Source: Xanthostigma xanthostigma (taxonomy: Eukaryota; Arthropoda; Insecta; Raphidioptera; Raphidiidae). Taken from it: DNA of 64,000 nucleotides. The position numbers were made by a program, and so were the translations under genes. The stretch covers positions 19,300,001 through 19,364,000 of the forward strand of contig OY754469.1 in assembly GCA_963575645.1 (NCBI GenBank), given 5' to 3'. Within the stretch, counting starts at the first letter, position 1; every line of letters starts with the position of its first letter. Positions 2,660 through 63,059 of the stretch are shown one piece after another. The notes under the pieces are model-generated. The model was not told the origin of the DNA and did no database searches. It saw only the letters and a program-made list of their open reading frames with translations.

Positions 2660-4137
2660 AATGTTTATGGGTAGAATCGAATTTAAATTTTCATAAAACT
2701 GCTTGTTTTCAGATATAGGTGTACTGAAGGCTGTGTTTAATGACAGTGCAATTGCATTTAAGAAAACGCATAATATTTTAAGGAATGTATTAGGACAATT
2801 TTTTTGTTTTTTCCAAAAACAAACTTAAATTTATATTTATAATGAAGCCACAATGTATGTATTAGCAAATATACACTATCTTATCGGCAGGGTTTGGCAG
2901 TGCGATCCGAATTTTATATTATTATTTGTCCGTTTAATTGGTCATTAATAAATTGAAAACATATACATCATATTTTCAGATATATTTTGTGCGTCAACTT
3001 TCCTCTCTGCTTTTATATCTCGTAATAAATCATGATATTTGACCCATTACAGTGTCACTGTAGCTATTGTAGGTATAATTTGCTAGCTATCTACTCATAA
3101 GTCGTCACAATATTGAGTTGGCATGGAATATGCATCATTTATGCAAAATGTATAGCGTATTTATTTACCAGATACCTTTACATAATATACAACACCGCCT
3201 ATTGTGAAAAGCAACAACTGTGAAAAGCATTTGAGTGGTTTTATTATAATCCTTCCAACATGTAAATAACGTTTTCCATTGCATTTTAATATTTTATTAT
3301 CAAATGAATTTTACGGGATGTGAGTTCAAAATATTATGCTGAGTACCGAGGGATTTAACATTTTCAATTTATGTTAGTGCATGAAAACATTTTAAAATAG
3401 CTCAAATTGAAAATGTTTTATACTAGGTGCAGAATTGAAATGTGACGGTATCAGAGCACAGTGCACACCTGCAAAGTTCAAGGCATGCACATTTTCCGTT
3501 CAATGAACTACTGAACGAGAATTTTACCATTCAATGACTATTTCTTGAGGAAGATTACTGTTTGCATTTTCCATCAGCTCGAATACCGAGTGTGACAGCG
3601 GTGGTGGCGGCACATTTCATCATGACACCCCCATCGGCTGTCCATGGTCAAGTTCGCTTCCTGCAACCACTGTTACTTCAGATCAGCTGTACGTACAAGA
3701 GATCTTTAAAACTGAAAAAAGTTGTCACAAAAGCTGAAGCTTACGATTCATATTACATTTCCAAACAACTGAACCACTCAATGCTCATTTCAAATATGCC
3801 TTGGAACTTTGATGGCAATGGTATTCTTTTTCTATGCCCGGCCTTACTCCGAGCATGTATAAATCAGATTCATTTCAAGTTGGATTGAAATGAAGTTTAT
3901 GTCTGTGTGATAATAATAATATGTCGTGAGCAGTTAATAATAAATTCGAGTGAGCGAGCGAAGGGAGTGTGCAAATTATTTATTATTTAGTTATAAATGC
4001 GAACGACCCGAGCGAAGCCGAATGTGGCATTTTACTCGTGATTATATCGATTTATATTTAAAAAAAGGCTATATATTATATAATCAGCACAGTGACCAAG
4101 TTAGCCATATAGTTTCTCGCAATGATTCAATCGGTAG
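2660..4137. other. No recognised gene; hypothetical 108-codon frame at 3562-3888
   Basis: The stretch is AT-rich and mostly featureless. A plus-strand frame of 108 codons at 3562-3888 is the only notable open frame. Its product matches no family I know and has no clear domain, signal peptide or low-complexity bias. It could be chance. At 3948-4023, 'cgagtgagcgagcgaag' and 'cgacccgagcgaagccg' look like fragments of a GC-richer repeat. Confidence 0.3.
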
Positions 4138-10169: not shown

Positions 10170-11190
10170 ATTGTTATTTTTGAGTAAACTTTGACGAGAA
10201 GAAACTCTTGTAATGGCGAAAAAATTCATATTGATATTTCGAATTTTGGGAGTTAAAAAACTCATCCTAAAGCTCGTGTGAAAAAATTTTGTGTTGGCAA
10301 AAAAATGTTTGGCAACACATTGTTTTTTGAAAACAGTGTTAAGTCGCCAGAAAAACAGTTTTGCACAGGTCCAACTAGTAAATGACATTAAATTATAATA
10401 ATCAATTTTCGTCGATCGCGTGAATCACGCAAATGTCTATTTTTCGCTACAGCAAAAAAAAGGAAAAGCTGTCAGTCATATTCAACAGGACTTCTCAGTT
10501 TTTTTTTGTTCGACTCGTCGTCACAACACTCATATATAAAATACAAAGGTGCGTCCGGGCAACTAGCCGGGTTATCTTTTTTCATTGTTCGTTGCAGTAA
10601 AAAACAGACCACCAGATGTAACTGTTGAAATGTCCCCACGTACCGAAGTGTTTAGTCGTACTCATTTATTTTGCCAAAAATCTGACGTAAGCTACTTGAC
10701 CGCATGACCGCAGATTTGACATGCAGACGGGGACACCGCGTATCGGTTGCTTATGTAAACACAACACTTTGTCACAAAATCTTTAGTGAACGTTTATGGA
10801 ATACCAAATGCAATATTTTCAGCGCAAATCATTTTCAGAATGCGAACAACACTGTGGTGCTTCCAGCGCAGTATACTGACTGTTCGACAAAAAGAAAGTG
10901 TTCTAATTATGCTGCCATTGCGTGTATGCTGCTCCCGATCCGCTGTCAAAAATCCGGTTTGCCTTTCCAATGTGGGCACCTACATTGTAATCTTGGTGTT
11001 TGCTTTACTTCCAATGTCGACCGACATCGGATCTGGAGAAATACGGATCCAATCTAGGGGCAGCATTATAGGGATAGCCGACGCAGATATCCCCATTACT
11101 TCCACCTAATCACTTATGGAATGACTGACTTTTTGTTGGGATCATTTCCCGGCAATTAGTGATAATCACGTAATAAATGCAAATAACAGA
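10170..11190. other. No confident gene; overlapping 117- and 107-codon frames at 10704-11109
   Basis: Two plus-strand frames overlap at 10704-11057 and 10786-11109. Neither product matches a known family; the first is Cys-rich (about 13 Cys in 117 residues) but without spaced zinc-binding motifs. They cannot both be real and both may be chance. The segment is less AT-rich than its surroundings, so it may be a decayed transposon or a unique segment. Confidence 0.3.
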
Positions 11191-11194
11191 AAAA

Positions 11195-11379
11195 CTAATG
11201 AAGAAAACTTGTCTCAAAGAAGAGATGATCCTTGATTGATTTTAGTGTTTAGATGAAGAACTTTTTCGTAGCATAGTATTGCTTTTGTTGTTTGATCCTA
11301 TGCTACGAAGAAATTCTTCATTTAAACATCAGAATCAATCAAGGATCGTCTCTTCTTTGAGATAAGTTCTCTTCATTAG
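11195..11379. repeat. Long hairpin (arms about 83 bp, loop about 20 bp)
   Basis: The left arm (11195-11278) runs 'ctaatgaagaaaacttgtc' ... 'cgtagcatag'. The right arm (11297-11379) is its near-perfect reverse complement, ending 'gttctcttcattag'. Arms differ at about ten sites and small indels. It could be a foldback miniature element; no target duplication was resolved. A transcript would fold into one long stem. Confidence 0.75.
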
Positions 11380-11458
11380 GGTTTCTATTATTTGAAACTA
11401 AAACAAATAAAAGAATTTACCTACATGAAATAACCGTAACTTTTTCTTCTTGTTTCAG

Positions 11459-18448: not shown

Positions 18449-18496
18449 ATGCTGAGTTGTGTATTACAATTATAAATTATATAGCCACAAAAAATT

Positions 18497-19005
18497 ATAA
18501 AATAAAAACTTTTTAACAAAAAAATTAAACCGCCGAAAAACTGAAAAGCAAAAAATAATAAATCTTTTTATGTAACTAAGTTTTATTTAAGTAGTTGAAC
18601 GTATGTGACAGTCTAGTATATCTAAGTAATTTTGAGTCGGCGTCAAACAATCAATGAACAAAGATCACTAAAAGAAATAACCAAATCAAATTAACAATGA
18701 TACGTGAAATCTCTAGCGATAAACATTAACATTCTAACTATGCGCTCTCCACACGACCACTCGCAAAGACGTGTGCCCTCAGTGTGTGCCCGTTCGGGTT
18801 GCTCTGTCGCTGATATTAACTTCGTGAACTCTCAGAGATCTCCGGCGAAGGATTGTTGACGCCGACTCAAAATTACTTAGATATACTAGACTGTCACATA
18901 CGTTCAACTACTTAAATAAAACTTAGTTACATAAAAAGATTTATTATTTTTTGCTTTTCAGTTTTTCGGCGGTTTAATTTTTTTGTTAAAAAGTTTTTAT
19001 TTTAT
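18497..19005. mobile_element. 509-bp element with ~155-bp terminal inverted repeats
   Basis: The left arm (18497-18652) starts 'ataaaataaaaac' and ends 'gagtcggcgtcaaacaatc'. The right arm (18851-19005) is almost its exact reverse complement, differing mainly by one A. The 198-bp centre is GC-richer and non-coding. Near identity of the arms implies recent origin or arm-to-arm conversion. Target duplication is not evident (left 'aaaaatt', right 'cattgtac'). Confidence 0.8.
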
Positions 19006-19007
19006 CA

Positions 19008-19406
19008 TTGTACAATACTACAATCACGTGTACCGCGTGCCTACTACCTGAACAGATACACATTACAATGCACAGTACTGTATGTGGATCCGAGACGACA
19101 GAGATAAATATGCAACATGTATGTTCATTGGAACACTATAGAGCTGTTATACCTCTGCTACAGAAGTGCCATGAGTATAGAAAATGCGTCTGTATTAAAT
19201 ATTTCACGGAGTTAACTGATCCGTTGATCCGTCGGGTCAGAAAGAACGAAGTCGGCTCCCATGGATCTTCTGTCGGAATCGAATCTTCTAAACAGTTCAG
19301 TTACCCAACCCTAATTGCAGCTGAATGTGAGTACCAGCAACTTCTCACCAATTTTGGATTTCGTTCGCATTATACCATCAGCAAGGTATCTCAGTTAGTG
19401 GCATAA
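19008..19406 (+). CDS. Hypothetical 132-codon open frame
   Basis: This is one of the longest open frames in the window, directly right of the inverted-repeat element. Its start lies in the last bases beside the element's right arm. The product is moderately Cys-rich (about nine Cys) with no recognisable domain, signal peptide or membrane segment. The frame's base composition is less AT-rich than its flanks. I cannot say whether it is a host exon, a transposon remnant or chance. Confidence 0.22.
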   Translation: MYNTTITCTACLLPEQIHITMHSTVCGSETTEINMQHVCSLEHYRAVIPLLQKCHEYRKCVCIKYFTELTDPLIRRVRKNEVGSHGSSVGIESSKQFSYPTLIAAECEYQQLLTNFGFRSHYTISKVSQLVA

Positions 19407-24051: not shown

Positions 24052-24500
24052 GGCCGCTGCATACGAGGCTAGAAACTGCTAGAAACACTGCTTGGACTTC
24101 TGCTGGCCGGCAGGCTGGGTACGAGGCTGGAAATGACATCACTGCGAGCTCGCAAGATAAATTTTAAAATTAGAACACGGGCTATTTCTCTTGCTAGGTC
24201 CTGTGCTTGCTCTGAGGAAGAACCAATCAGGAAACAGTATCTTGTCTCGTGGGCGACTCAACATGGCGTCATTGTGCTCAGAGTCAGACAACCATATATT
24301 TAGCAGACAACATAATATACGGTTTGCTCTGTGTTTATATTTGAACTGTCACTGCGCGCGCACCAGATCTATCCACAAAACAGGCTTGAAAAGACGTCTC
24401 CTGTGAAACGAGCACATAAAAGCAATTAACAGCGCTAGAAAACTAGTAGTCAAATCTGACAAGGAATCTAGCGGCAAATCCAGCTATGTGTGCAGCAGCC
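24052..24500 (+). mobile_element. GGCCGCTGC-family inverted-terminus element, copy 1
   Basis: Starts GGCCGCTGCATACGAGGCT and ends with the approximate inverse (TGTGTGCAGCAGCC). Intact copies of this family at 35811 and, less perfectly, 56591 are flanked by TTAA; this copy has degenerate flanks (TTTG / TTTA). Shared internal landmarks are 'aaccaatcaggaaacagtat', 'gtgtttatatttgaactgtc' and 'accagatctatccacaaaac'. No transposase is encoded; the 71-codon frame inside is an incidental reading of the repeat. Confidence 0.7.
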
Positions 24501-26123: not shown

Positions 26124-26314
26124 TGTTTTCATTACACCCGTTCTTTATTTATTTTTTTAAAATAAATGATTTTGTTGTTGTTATTAAAATTTATTGAAAT
26201 AGTGAGTTTAGTTGTTTTATGCCAAAAGAAAAATCTTGTATGACATATTGTATTGTGTCTGATTTATTTAATAAAAATTAAAATAAAACTGCGCTTAAAA
26301 TATTAAATTCAATA
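26124..26314 (+). repeat. 5' LTR of the Copia-like element
   Basis: Matches 26985-27177 except at its first 10-14 bases, one T-run length, one extra GTT, and two transitions. It is followed immediately by the primer-binding site at 26315-26329. Confidence 0.88.
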
Positions 26315-26329
26315 GGTTATGGGCCCAGG
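26315..26329 (+). promoter_or_regulatory. Primer-binding site matching the initiator tRNA-Met internal (anticodon) region
   Basis: GGTTATGGGCCCAGG is complementary to the tRNA-iMet anticodon stem-loop (CTGGGCCCATAACC), not to the tRNA 3' end. Copia of Drosophila primes from such a half-tRNA, so this site supports the Copia assignment and suggests the same priming mode. Confidence 0.85.
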
Positions 26330-26351
26330 CTTTGAATAAGGAGAAATTAAT

Positions 26352-26624
26352 ATGACGTCAACAGTGAGTGCTACGAGATTTGAGCTTTTGAGTAAAGATA
26401 ATTATGAAGCCTGGAAAATTCATGTAGAGGCGTTATTGATTAAAAATGATTTGTGGGAATATGTCAGTGGTGATAAACTTATTCCTGATGTTATTGAAGG
26501 TAATCAAGCAAGTATTGTTGCGAGGAATGATTGGATTAAAACTGATCGTAAAGCTAAATCAGAAGTGATATTAGCGATTAGTTCAATGGAATTACAGCAT
26601 GTTCGAGGATCTTTCATCTACTGA
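26352..26624 (+). pseudogene. Copia gag N-terminus (truncated)
   Basis: A start codon 22 bases after the primer site opens a frame whose first ~85 residues read as the start of a Copia gag (UBN2-like): FELLSKDNYEAWKIHVEALL, then a Trp-Glu-Tyr-containing stretch and a DWIKTDRKAKSEVILAIS segment. In intact elements gag continues into a zinc knuckle, protease, integrase, RT and RNase H. Here it is cut after about residue 83, where the sequence jumps into the RNase H region in another frame; the last residues before the stop are therefore out-of-frame. It cannot make particles by itself. Confidence 0.85.
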
Positions 26625-26952
26625 ATCAGAGTATATTAGTTTATCAGAAGCTATGAACGAAGCAATATATTTAAAAGGATTATTAACTGAACTTGAGCAA
26701 GATGAATTTTCAGAAATTGAGTTACTAATTGATAATCGTGGAGCTGAACAACTGGCTTCAAACCCAGTTTATCATGCACGCACGAAGCACATTGATATTC
26801 GTCATCATTTTGTGAGAGAAGCAGTTGAAAATGCAATTGTGAAATTACGTCATGTATCTACAAATGAGATGGTTGCAGATATTTTGACAAAAGCACTTCC
26901 AAGAGAATTACATGATAAATGTATTCAAGGATTGGGACTTCAAATAATTTAA
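26605..26952 (+). pseudogene. Copia RNase H C-terminus (truncated)
   Basis: The frame reads the end of the Copia polyprotein: LSSTESEYISLSEA (the catalytic SSTE-EY motif typical of Ty1/copia RNase H), a middle segment with IDNRGAEQLASNPVYHARTK, then HIDIRHHFVREAV and DILTKALPRELH, ending at TAA 26950-26952. The first Met of the open frame belongs to the junction, not to the family. The join to gag is at about 26600-26610. It is a remnant: most of RNase H and all of RT are missing. Confidence 0.9.
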
Positions 26953-26984
26953 ATTATGATTATAACGTATGTCTTGAGGGGGTG

Positions 26985-27177
26985 TGTTGGAATCCAAGAC
27001 ACCCGTTCTTTATTTATTTTTTTTAAAATAAATGATTTTGTTGTTATTAAAATTTATTGAAATAGTAAGTTTAGTTGTTTTATGTCAAAAGAAAAATCTT
27101 GTATGACATATTGTATTGTGTCTGATTTATTTAATAAAAATTAAAATAAAACTGCGCTTAAAATATTAAATTCAATA
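26985..27177 (+). repeat. 3' LTR of the Copia-like element
   Basis: Begins TGTTGGAATCC directly after the GAGGGGG-TG purine tract and ends AATTCAATA. It is the better reference for the family because the start of the 5' LTR is altered. It probably supplies the polyadenylation signal (AATAAA occurs in it). Confidence 0.88.
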
Positions 27178-33300: not shown

Positions 33301-33311
33301 AAAATAGGTTA

Positions 33312-33533
33312 AATAAAATATAGTTTAAAAAAAACTAAAAAACACGCTTTATATCGGACTAAAAAGTAAAAAATAATTGTTTTAAAATAAGCTTAAAAAG
33401 CGTTGGGCGCTCGATGTACGAAAATGTGGAACAAAGCGCCCCACGCTTTTTAAGCTTATTTTAAAACAATTATTTTTTACTTTTTAGTCCGATATAAAGC
33501 GTGTTTTTTAGTTTTTTTTAAACTATATTTTAT
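33312..33533. repeat. Foldback sequence (arms ~98 bp, loop ~26 bp)
   Basis: The left arm (33312-33410) and right arm (33437-33533) are almost perfect reverse complements, sharing 'cacgctttatatcggactaa' and 'ataagcttaaaaagcg'. The loop is 'gctcgatgtacgaaaatgtg' and a few bases. The sequence directly downstream (33593-33715) is the same dispersed tail that follows a different, shorter hairpin at 60720-60776. Confidence 0.8.
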
Positions 33534-33592
33534 TTTTCACTTTTTAGTTTGAGGATCTATAAAAGAATTTATTAATCCTGGGGGTCCTAATA

Positions 33593-35810: not shown

Positions 35811-36526
35811 GGCCGCTGCTAGATTCTTTGCTAGATTTGTCTACTAGTTTTCTAGCGGTGGTTTTCTTGATTGCTGTTAAGTACTCGCTTCACACGAGAC
35901 TATTTTTCAAGCTTAATTTGTGGATAGATCTGGTGCGCGAGTTACATACGTATTATTGCTGACAAGCCAACTGATAAACACCTACACATCATCGCTATCT
36001 AATTTGGCGACTTAAATGCATCAAAGTAGACAACACTATCATTTATTAGATTCATTATATTTTTAACGACCAATGGTTGACTTATAATCATTACAATAAT
36101 TAAATAATCCATTTATATTAAATGTACTTCATTTTTCATTACAATAAATCCTATTGTAAACTTTCCTAAATAAATAATTGTTTTTTAAAAACATTTTATC
36201 TGGTATCAAAACCATAATTCGCGCACAGTGACAGTTCGAATATAAACACAGAGCAAAACGTCTGTTGTCTGACTCTGAACAGAATGCGACACCATGTTGG
36301 TTTACGGGTGTTTGTTCAAGTGCCCACGTGACACGATACTGCTTCCTGATTAGTTCTTGCTCATACCTGACAGCAAATCTCGCAGGGAAAATAACCTTTG
36401 TTCTAATTTTAAAACCTATCTTGTGAGCTAGCAGACCAGCCCGCAGTGACGTCATTTCTAGCTTTGTACCCAGCCTACCGGCTAGCAGAACTCCTGGCAG
36501 CGTTTCTAGCCTCGTGTGCAGCGGCC
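35811..36526 (-). mobile_element. GGCCGCTGC-family element, best-preserved copy, TTAA-flanked
   Basis: Starts GGCCGCTGC, ends GCAGCGGCC, and is flanked on both sides by TTAA (35807-35810, 36527-36530). Internal order is the reverse of copies at 24052 and 56591: 'gcctcgtgtgcagcggcc' is at its right end. TTAA duplication is typical of piggyBac-group transposons, but the terminus lacks the usual CCC start, so the family is uncertain. No transposase; the 108-codon minus-strand frame (36129-36455) reads through repeat sequence. Confidence 0.8.
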
Positions 36527-36543
36527 TTAAAACATATAGTTAA

Positions 36544-37752
36544 GGCAATGGTGCGTATTTCAATCGGTGGAAAGCAACCGGATGACTCTTGGTATTTGAG
36601 TTCCTGAAGCAATTTGGAAACTTTTTTGTTCAGTACCTCATAACCCCAAAATGGAAGGAATCGGAGAAAAGGGGGGGGGGTCAAAACGTAAAAAAAAATT
36701 GTTTAGAAACCAAATGGAAAGGCGGTAGCATTAAAGTACATGTACTCACTATTGTTTAAAAAAATTGTCATCCGAAACGTGCGGACGGTTTGCGCGAACC
36801 GATTTTTTGAAAATCGGAAAAAAAAAATTGTGTCGCAACCGGTTGCGATTTTGAGGAAAATTCTTGTTTTTGTTCAGAGATGCTGTAAAAAAATTGTCAT
36901 CCGTTTCTGCTGGACGGATTTTGAGGAATTAAAGGTTTGAGTGGCTAAAATTCTCGATTTTTCACTAGCTTTTTTCAAACATCATAAAAAAATTGCTAAA
37001 ATTGTTAAAAACGGATGACGTTTCTTATACATGTTCTCAGAGGGTCCAACTATAATATGTATCAATGTCATCCGTTTTATAACATTTAACCTCATTTTTC
37101 AACCCCTAAAGGGGTTGTGTACGTTATCTGTATGCCATCAGAAACGAGTCTAACCTCAATATTCTGATTAATATCGCACAAAAGTAAGGGGTTGAAAAAT
37201 GGGGTTAAATGTTATAAAAACGGATGACATTGATACATATTATAGTTGGACCCTCTGAGAACATGTATAAGAAACGTCATCCGTTTTTAACAATTTTAGC
37301 AATTTTTTTATGATGTTTGAAAAAAGCTAGTGAAAAATCGAGAATTTTAGCCACTCAAACCTTTAATTCCTCAAAATCCGTCCAGCAGAAACGGATGACA
37401 ATTTTTTTACAGCATCTCTGAACAAAAACAAGAATTTTCCTCAAAATCGCAACCGGTTGCGACACAATTTTTTTTTCCGATTTTCAAAAAATCGGTTCGC
37501 GCAAACCGTCCGCACGTTTCGGATGACAATTTTTTTAAACAATAGTGAGTACATGTACTTTAATGCTACCGCCTTTCCATTTGGTTTCTAAACAATTTTT
37601 TTTTACGTTTTGACCCCCCCCCCCTTTTTCTCCGATTCCTTCCATTTTGGGGTTATGAGGTACTGAACAAAAAAGTTTCCAAATTGCTTCAGGAACTCAA
37701 ATACCAAGAGTCATCCGGTTGCTTTCCACCGATTGAAATACGCACCATTGCT
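36544..37752. mobile_element. 1.2-kb TTAA-flanked near-perfect palindrome (foldback element)
   Basis: Left arm 36544-37106 and right arm 37188-37752 are reverse complements over about 563 bp with very few differences, around an 81-bp centre (37107-37187). Termini are GGCAATGGTGCG (left) and CGCACCATTGCT (right), flanked by TTAA (36540-36543, 37753-37756). Each arm carries five copies of GTCATCC/GGATGAC (left arm at 36580, 36767, 36896, 37013, 37067), several embedded in 'aaaaaaattgtcatccg'. No open frame is convincing. A transcript would form a hairpin of over 500 bp. It begins only 13 bp from the previous TTAA element. Confidence 0.9.
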
Positions 37753-37875
37753 TTAACTAATAGTTATTAACAATATCGTTGTTATGTCGTGGTCGCATCA
37801 ATATAGAGTGTCCCAGACATGACTTCCAAGACCATTATTTTTAAAATTATTTTTAAAATAACCCCACCAAGCCTA

Positions 37876-44602: not shown

Positions 44603-44850
44603 GTTTGTTTCTAATGTTAGTTCTTAGTATTACTTAAAGTTCAGATTATGGCGTTATTATAGTTTTTAGAAAATTGCAATATGAGAGTAGTATAACAGTA
44701 TAAGGTACCAATATTTAAGGCGTTAGTCATCATCATAGTATACGGTTCGCTAAGTTCGCTTAACGGAGCGCCCATAAGCATTGAAACAATTATAAAGAAT
44801 ATAATTATGCATAAAAATTATACCGCTTATACTTATATTATGAAGTATAA

Positions 44851-45060
44851 GGCCTAGTTTATATGAGAGGCGTTCAACGCGCGTTGGCCCAACGCGCGTT
44901 TACAGCTTCTATACAATTGTATAGAACTGTTTATATGATAACGCGCGTTCAACGCGCCACCAACGCGCGTTATCATATAAACAGTTCTATACAATTGTAT
45001 AGAAGCTGTAAACGCGCGTTGGGCCAACGCGCGTTGAACGCCTCTCATATAAACTAGGCC
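44851..45060. mobile_element. Palindromic Harbinger-like miniature element, TAA-flanked
   Basis: The whole 210-bp element is an almost perfect palindrome, centred near 44956, starting GGCCTAGTTTATATGAG and ending with the inverse. TAA lies on both sides in direct orientation (44848-44850, 45061-45063), fitting the TWA preference of PIF/Harbinger. Repeated AACGCGCGTT palindromes (at least six) lie within it, plausible transposase-binding sites. Because of the symmetry, both strands show nearly the same 64-codon frame, which is not a gene. Confidence 0.85.
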
Positions 45061-45200
45061 TAAGTGTACGGCTCACTGCTTAAATTTAGAATATTTGACA
45101 GAGTTATGACAACTTTTTAACAAATAAGTTGTCATGTTTAGGACCTACTTTAAACTGTTTAAATAAAAGTCGTATTTCATATTTTTAAAGTGAATCTTCT

Positions 45201-45601: not shown

Positions 45602-46370
45602 AAAACAGAGGTTATCAATTCGTCACGTATTTATTTTATTGTTATAAAGCGATAACTTTCCGAGAGGTGAACCGATTTAAACAAAATCGACACCATTTTG
45701 TTCAGAATGTTTACAGAATGGTCGTATATCATTTTTTAACTGCAGACTTCAAAAAATGATTTTGACGTGATAACGTCTTATAAATTGATGAATCACCAAT
45801 CTTATAAATTGATAAAACACCGGCTGCATGCACTAAAAAGTGTAACGTTCCTAACGCGTGACGTTCCTAACGTTCGTAACGTTCCGCCTGACCCTGTGCG
45901 TGCTTTTCTCGAAAACGGCCATAACGATTTGGATGAAATTTACTGAAAAGGGATTTTGGGGGGCAAAAAATCGTTTTAGCTAGGTCTCATCTCTCGAAAA
46001 AATCGTTTTCTTACAAATTTTATCATTATAAAAATCAATTTTTTGACGTATGAAAATACTTAAATATTGTAAGTAGGTTTTGGAATTTTATATTATAAAC
46101 AGTGAAACAATTGTTTTATAAATATTATGACAGCTAATCTTTGAGACTTAAAATAAATACGAAAGAAAGTTAAAAAAAACAATTATATTATATGGTGAGT
46201 AATTTAAATAAAAAAAATTAACCTAAATTTGAAGCGAAAGATGCAATATCATAGATTCGAATTATTATAATCATTATATAAATTTAGGTTATGTATTACG
46301 GAATACGTTATCACGTAAAACTATCGTCCGTAAACCGACTTTACAGACAACCAATTTTTTTTTTGTATGT
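45602..46370. repeat. Two dispersed repeats: 'gagaggtgaaccgat' unit and an inverted partner of 52160-52440
   Basis: 45630-45720 ('cgagaggtgaaccgattt' ... 'cgacaccattttgttca') recurs at 52930-52980. At 45764-45860 ('gacgtgataacgtcttataa' ... 'ccggctgcatgc') and 46300-46360 ('cacgtaaaactatcgtccgt') the text is the reverse complement of pieces at 52160-52440. No coding content. Confidence 0.55.
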
Positions 46371-47314: not shown

Positions 47315-48820
47315 TTTTAACTTTGTTGCAATATCATAATAAGTTCTGTAGCAAATAAAAATTGTTTCTGGCAACATCGGTGCAGTGATTTGATATATCA
47401 ATGTGTGATGTACCGGCGCATTGTACCACATATCGCGTTTGAATGCACTGTTCACTTGACCTGCCACAAATGCATCATGGCCACAGATATACATCATTTA
47501 CGTTTGACTCACAATATTGTTGTGTCTGTTTTTGAAATATCGAACAGGGATGTTACAGATGTGGATTTTACTGACATCAGCAGATGCGGATGCGAATTTT
47601 TTTGACGTTCACATCGGCAGATGCGGAATAATAATATGATTTATCTATGCAAATAATTAAAATTGAAGTGTATATTGTAATATATTACATACTAGCGGGC
47701 CGGTCCGGCTTCGCCCGGATTTGTGGATTGCCTATTAAACATTGACATTATTATGAGGTATCGGACTTTTTTATAGAATTATAGCGGACTCGATAAAACA
47801 ATTATACACAAAAAACTAAACACATGCGTTGTTTTTACGTCGTATTGTTTGTCTATGAAACACATCTGACGTGGAATTAATTGTAGCTATCCGATTTGTT
47901 TTTGGACTAATAGTTTTGAGCAAATTTCTAACAGATATCGCTATTTGGTACTAAATCAGGAACTCTTTAATCAGTTATCAGGAGGCCTAGCTATGCCTGC
48001 TGTGTTTCGAAATGGACCGTTTTCTGGTGCACGCGAGATGGCGTTGCTATCACTACCTGGGAAAACTTCGGTTCTTGATTTTTATTTATTAAATTTTGAA
48101 AATTTCAATATTTTACAATTTTTTTATTTTTCAATTATTTTTTTTAAATATATACGATATTTGAGATATTCAAAAATAAACTTAGAAGATTCGAAAATTG
48201 ATAAATTTTTGAATTTTGCATAACTTATGAAATGTTTTTTAAATTTTTTTTCCGTTGGTAAGGATGAAAGAATACTTCTGACCAAATTTCATTCAATTCG
48301 GAATGGGTCGATTTGACTTGGAATGACCCATAAATGTAAATCTGTTCTATTATTTCAAATAGAAACTTTGTTTTTTAGATTGTCTATCTATAGTACATTC
48401 GGTGTTTACTGAGTCATATGGACGCCTTAAGTATTAGGGTTCTAAACTAGCATCTCATGAATTGCCGCCCTAGATATTATATTATATACTATTATTGGAT
48501 AACCATTATCAACTTATTGTCTTATCAACCAGAGTTGACATCATCTCGAAATAATTTTTTTATTATTTTTATGAGTTGTGACACATTTTGTTGTGGATCT
48601 TTATTCAGCTTAGTCACTAACAATGAACACAGTCATTTCATGAAATGTCTCCATTTAATCCTGCAGTGATGATATGCTGTAATTCAAATAATTAAACTTT
48701 AAAATTAAGAGTATAGGTACATATCTTAGTTTTCAAGACAGTATTACTGGTAATAAAACATTCCAGCCAATTGAGCGACAAGACCATTTCAACTTCAGAA
48801 ATATTGGCATTTAATATACC
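47315..48820. other. No recognised gene; SINE-like head at 47694
   Basis: 47694-47740 is the head of the 'ctagcgggccggtccggctt' short repeat. Around 47545-47635, 'gatg(c/t)gga' motifs recur, resembling subterminal hAT sequence. 48060-48320 is very AT-rich. Frames of 70-110 codons are present but unrecognised. Confidence 0.35.
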
Positions 48821-48880
48821 TATTGAAGGAGATTTATTTGGTTGAGGAACAATTGAAAAATAAGCTTTACCAGAGTATCG

Positions 48881-48928
48881 CTTGTGGCCAACGTTTCGAA
48901 AAATATATTTTCATCTTCAGGGTCTCAA
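48881..48928 (-). ncRNA. Hammerhead-like motif, left arm
   Basis: On the minus strand: TTGAGACC (stem I), CTGAAGA core, an extra T, GAAAATATATTTTTC (self-complementary stem II), GAAAC, GTT, GGCCACAA (stem I). Six of eight stem I positions pair. Stem III would be minimal, as in described Penelope hammerheads. Confidence 0.55.
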
Positions 48929-49121
48929 TACATGATCATTTAAATTATGAATTTCAACAATTTTTAAATTTAATAATATCATAAAACAGTTTTTTCGATA
49001 AAATTGTTCTGTTCAATGTGAAAATAAATATTGATATTTTTAAATTTTAAAACTGTTGTAATTCATAATTTAAATGATCATGTATATTACAATAATTTGC
49101 ACAATTTACCATCTCAACATA

Positions 49122-49168
49122 TTGAGGCCCTGACGATGAAAATATATTTTTCGAAACGTTGGTCACAA
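49122..49168 (+). ncRNA. Hammerhead-like motif, right arm
   Basis: In order: TTGAGGCC (49122-49129), CTGACGA (49130-49136, fitting the CUGANGA core), T, GAAAATATATTTTTC (stem II), GAAAC (49153-49157), GTT (cleavage-site type NUH), GGTCACAA (49161-49168). Stem I pairs at seven of eight positions. The extra T between core and stem II departs from the textbook motif but also occurs in the two other examples in this window. Activity is inferred, not shown. Confidence 0.6.
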
Positions 49169-49239
49169 GTGATACTCTGGTAAAGCTTATTTTTCAATTG
49201 TTCCTTAACCAAATAAATCTCATTCAATACATATTTTTG

Positions 49240-62214: not shown

Positions 62215-62615
62215 TAAGTATAAAGTCTCGTCGATTAGCGGTTTTCACATTTAAATGCTATTGAACTGTCCCATTTCTGTTCTGGAAATTTTATGTGATT
62301 CGTTTTATGGTAATTCAGCGATAATAGTTCTTTCTAATGAAATTCGAAAGCAGAATAAAAGCGAAAATATTTATGACATAAAACAATGAACTGCCCTGGA
62401 ACAAAAACCATCTTCTGTTTGCTTTTGTTATGTTAAAAATATCATCTTCTCACAGACTACTGATTAGCCACAGACTCATGTATTATTCGTGCATCTTTGA
62501 ACGCACATGGTAGTATGGCACAATGTGTTTGTTAAGACATTTCTAATTTGCGCAAATAAAATCAAAAACTCAACGTGTTTAGTTAAAGGCACCTATAAAA
62601 AAAAAAAAAAACAAA
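62215..62615. other. No recognised gene
   Basis: AT-rich sequence ending in an A-rich run at 62597-62620. Nothing recognised. Confidence 0.3.
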
Positions 62616-62621
62616 ATAAAA

Positions 62622-62989
62622 AAATTTGAAAAAACCCACGACGAATGTAAATATTGTAATAGAAAAAAATTAGATAAAATTCTAAAATCCCCCGACATGT
62701 TAACGCAGGTAAGTTACCAAAGAAAATCCGTCGGGGGCTGCCATTCACTGCCCTGAAATGAACTAAAATATTGCAATTTTAGAGTATGTGGCTGATTGAA
62801 ATCACGTTTGGTACCTACGTAAAAAACTGTAGTCTAATTTATATTCTTAATTCAGGGCAGCGAACGGCAGCCCTCGACGAATTTTCTTTGATTACTTACT
62901 TGCGTTATGTCGGGGATTTCAGAATTTTATTTTAATTATTTTTCTATTAGGTACAACATTTACATTCGTCGTGGGTTTTTTCAAAATTT
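62622..62989. mobile_element. Inverted-repeat element, arms ~137 bp
   Basis: Left arm 62622-62757 and right arm 62851-62989 are inverted copies: 'ttgaaaaaacccacgacgaa', 'gaaat/aaatcccc(c)gacat' and 'gggctgccattcactgccc' on the left each have counterparts. Divergence is roughly one base in ten with small indels. The 93-bp centre is non-coding. Ends lie in A/T runs, so the exact boundary and duplication are unresolved. Confidence 0.7.
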
Positions 62990-63059
62990 TTAATTTCGTT
63001 TCATTTTAAACTTTTTAGAGATTTTATAAAAGTTTGTTCAGATGGTCTAGACTCTAGAC

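Follow-up and report, generated by a model that had tools for sequence, protein, structure and literature searches.

The palindrome found in the window (the whole stretch of 64,000 nucleotides of Xanthostigma xanthostigma DNA that was analysed, located on contig C6) is one copy of an element that moves as a single 1.2-kb unit and duplicates 3 bp of AT-rich target. We consider it very probable that this is a cut-and-paste DNA transposon, non-autonomous and palindromic over its whole length, whose arms are kept alike by repeated conversion of one by the other. The termini are of the type TA..TA, and consist of either TAGTTAAR or TATTCAAR followed by GCAATGGTGCG. That the element is non-autonomous, and that a motif repeated along its arms is a transposase site, is what we infer. 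Copies of the element were compared within the same genome (623 Mb in 28 contigs), as were those of a second, related family.

The near-perfect symmetry noticed in the preliminary description was confirmed. Over the 568 alignment columns that compare both arms (36544-37108 and 37186-37752) there are only two internal substitutions, G/A at 36544/37752 and T/C at 37092/37202, plus a single base at the edge of the spacer and, within three homopolymers, four gap columns. An apparent clustering of these differences toward the spacer was a weak signal and was dropped. The extent originally proposed (36540..37756, 1217 bp) had to be corrected, since the symmetry reaches three bases beyond TTAA (TAG TTAA ... 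TTAA CTA, as seen in the window alone), so that the element has 1223 bp, with arms of about 571 bp (Table 1). No open reading frame or stop-free stretch of at least 80 codons is present inside the palindrome. Folded as RNA it gives a single long hairpin (-1029 kcal/mol), which is expected of any palindrome of such kind.

Table 1. Coordinates of the palindromic element and its parts within the window.
Feature	Position	Strand	Basis
Whole element of family A, 1223 bp	36537..37759	.	Boundaries from 25 copies and empty sites
3-bp target site duplication ATA, left	36534..36536	+	Copy comparison
3-bp target site duplication ATA, right	37760..37762	+	Copy comparison
Left arm	36537..37107	+	Arm alignment
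Right arm, reverse complement of left	37187..37759	-	Arm alignment
Spacer, about 79 bp (limits accurate to 1-2 bases)	37108..37186	.	Arm alignment
Left terminus TAGTTAAGGCAATGGTGCG, includes TTAA 36540-36543 earlier read as target duplication	36537..36555	+	
Right terminus TAGTTAAAGCAATGGTGCG (reverse strand)	37741..37759	-	
GTCATCCG site 1, left arm	36579..36586	-	Motif count; A/B alignment (GCCATCCG in B)
GTCATCCG site 2, left arm	36767..36774	+	Motif count; A/B alignment
GTCATCCG site 3, left arm	36896..36903	+	Motif count; A/B alignment
GTCATCCG site 4, left arm	37012..37019	-	Motif count; A/B alignment
GTCATCCG site 5, left arm	37067..37074	+	Motif count; A/B alignment
GTCATCCG site 5', right arm	37221..37228	-	Motif count; whole-length A/B alignment
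GTCATCCG site 4', right arm	37276..37283	+	Motif count; whole-length A/B alignment
GTCATCCG site 3', right arm	37392..37399	-	Motif count; whole-length A/B alignment
GTCATCCG site 2', right arm	37520..37527	-	Motif count; whole-length A/B alignment
GTCATCCG site 1', right arm	37710..37717	+	Motif count; whole-length A/B alignment

We have used one arm to search the genome and obtained 213 candidate places; the best 40 were scored, and their 80 arm matches make up 40 palindromes, in keeping with the earlier idea that the element moves as a palindrome. Examination of 30 returned loci (five of which repeat a copy) left 25 distinct copies of what we call family A, a sample drawn from the best-scoring 40 of the 213 candidates. 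The exact ends GTTAARGCAATGGTGCG appear 349 times in the genome and an alternative end TATTCAARGCAATGGTG 35 times, both with zero matches for the reversed-pattern control, and halving the end count suggests about 190 copies with intact ends. Among the 100 matches listed out of the 349, 86 ends form 43 inward pairs, 40 of which span 1199-1228 bp. The other 14 belong to 11 palindromes whose second end is either variant (TATTCAAR in nine: L061, L062, L064, L065, L066, L068, L069, L070 and L071) or damaged (L063 and L073), and to three truncated copies (L067, L072 and L074). L072 has just one arm and breaks off at its inner end. The truncated copy of L074 (reverse-complemented, 2814-3677) lies near open reading frames that we take to encode a TCP-1-type chaperonin subunit, and is probably inside or beside a gene. 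Three ends on contig C1, of the TATTC type without a GTTAA partner, correspond to short or truncated elements. A tandem array with a unit of about 120 bp was seen in L084 (3569-6024), and also in L069 and L071.

The second family (B) has the end pattern TAKTYAARGCAATGGV, with 1007 matches in the genome (seven for the control); all of the 100 matches listed continue with C. Six ends of the GGR class (control, six) and 50 of the GGCB class (control, zero; partly an unrelated repeat) were subtracted, and the remaining 951 suggest roughly 475 copies. Ten paired copies (three at first, then seven) and one pair with wide spacing were retrieved; the ten are palindromes of 1208-1209 bp, all on contig C1. 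When the genome was searched at the DNA level for one B arm, 804 candidates were obtained, the 40 scored giving 78 matches that form 38 adjacent pairs and two singles, with no arm matches far apart among these 78. A and B are 60-62% identical in alignments that cover all or most of the elements, and are two related palindromic families on the same plan.

The evolution of the arms could be followed by aligning all four arms of the window copy and of one B copy over 563 ungapped columns. At 328 columns the four arms are identical, and at 228 the two A arms are alike and the two B arms are alike with A differing from B, while the arms differ inside a family at only two (A) and five (B) columns. 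Furthermore, the A and B arms terminate at corresponding points of the alignment. This favors descent from a single palindromic ancestor, with joint change of both arms since then. Compared with simulations in which variants were placed at random and the relatedness of copies was ignored, minor alleles were found in both arms of one copy 10 times in family A versus 2.4 simulated (maximum 7 of 5000), and 28 times in family B versus 8.0 (maximum 19 of 5000), the B statistics being those of 10 copies from a single contig. Of the variants with two carriers, four out of five in A and nine out of 21 in B (1.1 expected) were on the two arms of the same copy. At four sites, two B copies (L088 and L090) have the same variants on both arms, as would happen had conversion preceded amplification, and in two others (L083 and L087) common variants are restricted to one arm. 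The arms of B differ by 1.19% within a copy versus 1.87-2.06% between copies. For A, the mean number of differences was 1.9 between left arms of different copies, 3.0 between the two arms of one copy, and 3.7 for right-right and left-right comparisons between copies.

Since single copies carry variants in both arms above what random placement produces, the arms evolve in concert, probably driven by arm-to-arm conversion. The homogenisation of the arms, one of the options raised by the preliminary description, is thus supported in both families but incomplete. At 37092/37202 conversion has not been complete, because the T/C difference between the arms persists in 23 of the 25 A copies, and family A seems to be a recent burst from a master in which this inner difference was already present. 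This is a clean example from nature of concerted evolution within individual copies of a transposon, in two families with 58% arm identity (329/563 columns).

The arms could also be alike from youth alone, if A and B had arisen independently, each formed recently by inverted duplication of one end of a relative that was not palindromic. A snap-back of this kind could be primed by the short inverted repeats CAACCCC/GGGGTTG present at the inner junction, and both the low divergence of the A arms and the single-arm copy L072, which goes no further than the inner end, would be understandable. Such independent origins do not easily account for the homologous arm ends of A and B, for the private variants that occur on both arms of a single copy in A and in B, nor for the common variants present in both arms of two B copies, and we regard them as rather unlikely. 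Repeated conversion in descendants of one palindromic ancestor is the explanation that we prefer.

The comparison of copies and of sites without the element also served to define the ends. TAGTTAAR is the start of all 25 A copies and YTTAACTA is found directly at the end in 24 (L051 has a short insertion there). Outside these ends an exact direct repeat of 3 bp appears in 25/25 copies, and one of 4 bp in none. The duplicated triplets are ATA (five copies), TTA (five), TAA (four), TAT (three), TTT (two), CTA (two), TTC, AAT, TCA and ATC; 70 of their 75 bases are A or T, and nine of the 25 are TWA. The 3-bp duplication was likewise found in 10/10 B copies, and in 43 of 44 complete copies across the fetched loci (overlapping loci and repeated copies included). 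The sole exception, the family-A copy L079, has flanks that mirror one another as inverted repeats outside the element, perhaps as a larger inverted duplication. To obtain the empty sites, the flanks were joined with a single copy of the 3 bp and matched to paralogous sequences without the element. The matches had no gap at the junction for L044 (98.8% over 321), L049/L056 (99.2% over 362), L050 (97.8% over 92, inside the window itself at 45760-45851 and at further loci) and the B copy L083 (94.7% over 150). The spanning matches of L032, L033 and L058, only 74-89% alike, were not clean enough for use.

The target duplication is, therefore, a variable AT-rich 3 bp, and TTAA is part of the element. 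The TTAA duplication read originally from the window copy is refuted, because the copies and the empty sites show a 3-bp duplication outside TAGTTAA. The search with one arm had been expected to reveal full-length copies with TTAA flanks, and empty sites elsewhere; many full copies and the empty sites were recovered, and the 3-bp duplication takes the place of the TTAA flanks. With them, the existence of a young mobile foldback-like family can be considered well founded.

These same data bear on the assignment to known superfamilies. TA is found at both ends of the element, and large palindromic elements of a seed beetle have been classed as Tc1/mariner (PMC10849321), so that a Tc1/mariner-like element with TA duplication could be envisaged. 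A TA duplication predicts XYZ-TA-XYZ at the empty site, but the clean empty sites hold only one XYZ, which is the triplet duplicated in 25/25 copies; the TA duplication is refuted and we find this affiliation very improbable. A non-autonomous element of the Kolobok or piggyBac type with TTAA duplication was convincing from one copy, with TTAA on either side of the boundaries first proposed and an adjacent RG..CY that fits Kolobok as it is described (PMC9587614, PMC6004289). It is refuted, as TAG stands before TTAA in every A copy, CTA directly after it in all but one, and the direct repeat always outside them, and TAGTTAA is absent from the empty sites. Even within family A TTAA is not fixed, because there are TATTCAAR ends. 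The lesson is that a TTAA or TA inside a terminus can mislead the assignment to a superfamily when a single copy is read. Finally, an assembly artefact or a one-off inverted duplication, in favor of which there is the symmetry itself and nothing more, can be practically discarded given 40 scored copies at distinct places (the best 40 of 213), the own flanks and target duplication of each of the 25 copies, and the empty sites.

According to the descriptions in the parts of the sources consulted (PMC9587614, PMC6004289, PMC10045372, PMC4482050, PMC4079192), the combination of this duplication with TA..TA termini fits none of Kolobok, piggyBac, Tc1/mariner, PIF/Harbinger, Pangu, NuwaI, NuwaII, ISL2EU, Chapaev3 or IS3EU. 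Kolobok has 5'-RR..YY-3' termini and piggyBac CC..GG, both with the TTAA duplication, and the TA duplication of Tc1/mariner disagrees with the empty sites. The length of the duplication fits PIF/Harbinger, but only the nine TTA or TAA cases would be its TWA. Chapaev3 (CMC) is described with CAC..GTG termini and a TWA duplication (PMC4079192), and IS3EU with the same TA..TA termini as here but usually a 6-bp duplication. The 3-bp duplication coincides with that given for Zator (PMC10045372) and lies within the 3-4 bp given for AcademX. Structurally, the families belong to the MITE-like/foldback class (inverted repeats, no protein of their own, many copies and a target duplication). They might conceivably constitute a separate group of DNA transposons, with TA..TA termini, an AT-rich 3-bp duplication and a constitutively palindromic structure, in which the copying of arms would be part of, or driven by, the transposition-repair cycle. 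We put this forward as a tentative proposal of rather low probability; if it were true, element and binding motif would evolve as one, and a motif change, matched by the transposase, would sweep through the ten sites together.

Large palindromic elements without genes are already known, by the accounts cited here, in a beetle and a mosquito. In Callosobruchus maculatus, gene-less 'Tc1-Mariner' elements of 1-2 kb, abundant (5.2% of the genome) and often essentially whole palindromes, resemble those of Xanthostigma, although, compared by description, they are Tc1-Mariner, while here a 3-bp duplication lies outside TA..TA (PMC10849321). Among 32 unclassified TIR/palindrome clusters of Anopheles gambiae, six are palindromic and nine exceed 1 kb; these MITE-like palindromes are similar by a description that, in the part consulted, does not mention a 3-bp duplication (PMC3212995). 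Galileo/Foldback of Drosophila also has long terminal inverted repeats, and sequence gained by one of them can pass to the other, but its duplication is of 7-8 bp and its transposase of the P superfamily, versus 3 bp and no transposase found here (PMC4168063). The Kolobok T2-MITE of Xenopus has a similar short AG-type sequence adjoining a TTAA string, but there TTAA is a true target duplication (PMC6004289), refuted in our case.

A conspicuous component of the arms is the motif GTCATCCG. The ten GTCATCC sites reported earlier are indeed there, 10 of the 13 occurrences in the window being inside the palindrome (2.99 expected in the window), and of the 11 occurrences of GTCATCCG 10 are also inside (0.68 expected). 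The motif is located at offsets 43, 231, 360, 476 and 531 of each A arm, and the homologous GCCATCCG at 44, 231, 359, 475 and 530 of the B arm, a correspondence that the whole-length A/B alignment reproduces for the other arm. Within the motif 35 of 40 bases are conserved between A and B, versus 56% elsewhere (P 2e-5); each of the five differences concerns one and the same T/C position. The sites are intact in 249 of 250 cases in the 25 A copies and in 98 of 100 in the 10 B copies. A protein-binding site that has changed in step with its protein at every homologous site would look like this, the candidate protein being a transposase. The homologous places in A and B make the transposase sites of the preliminary description plausible as binding sites, the role of the transposase itself being putative.

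In the mechanism that we favor, a transposase encoded elsewhere in the genome would bind the terminus and the five GTCATCCG sites of each arm, make cuts staggered by 3 bp and insert the element. The similarity of the arms would be maintained by repeated conversion, for example through strand snap-back in the repair of the excision gap or intrachromosomal gene conversion. By this route a change in one arm, the binding motif included, could pass to its counterpart, and transposition would then multiply it.

No transposase-bearing partner with A or B ends was found among the matches listed (100 of 349 and 100 of 1007), and the end pattern TAKTYAARGCAATGGTGCGV had zero matches in the genome. Three fetched ends of the GGCB class were rejected as partner, being an unrelated repeat of about 340 bp whose similarity continues outside the supposed end. 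A 4.6-kb B interval, also rejected, corresponds to a B copy interrupted by a nested insert, the long open reading frames of which presumably belong to a non-LTR retrotransposon. The Zator-type model PF07592 had zero matches in this genome, and likewise in 0/14 control genomes. Scanning of viral contigs gave 30 matches to a 16-base pattern, about the chance level by our uncomputed estimate, and none to three longer patterns; a collection of genome contigs gave none. Strings from the terminus occur in the text of 32 papers, where they are probably parts of primers.

The window has an overall G+C of 33% and is eukaryotic-looking DNA; ARAGORN detected no tRNA in it, and no Rfam family reached the gathering threshold. 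It is rich in foldback-like repeats, since further palindromes or long inverted repeats with 72-99% symmetry are found at 33311-33535, 48813-49237, 62603-63007, 11180-11394 and 18493-19009. Another palindrome (212 bp, 96%) at 44850-45061 has AGGCCTAG ends between flanks rich in A/T, and may be a Harbinger-like MITE with TAA duplication. The repeat-end-like sequence GCCGCTGCACACGA has five matches in the window (0.08 expected), at 24053, 54311, 56592, 57695 and 36512-36525, the last of them 11 bases to the left of the start of the family-A palindrome. Direct repeats of about 180 bp (97%) at 26134-27177 flank a copia-type gag piece (26340-26621), and this region is a small or deleted copia-like element.
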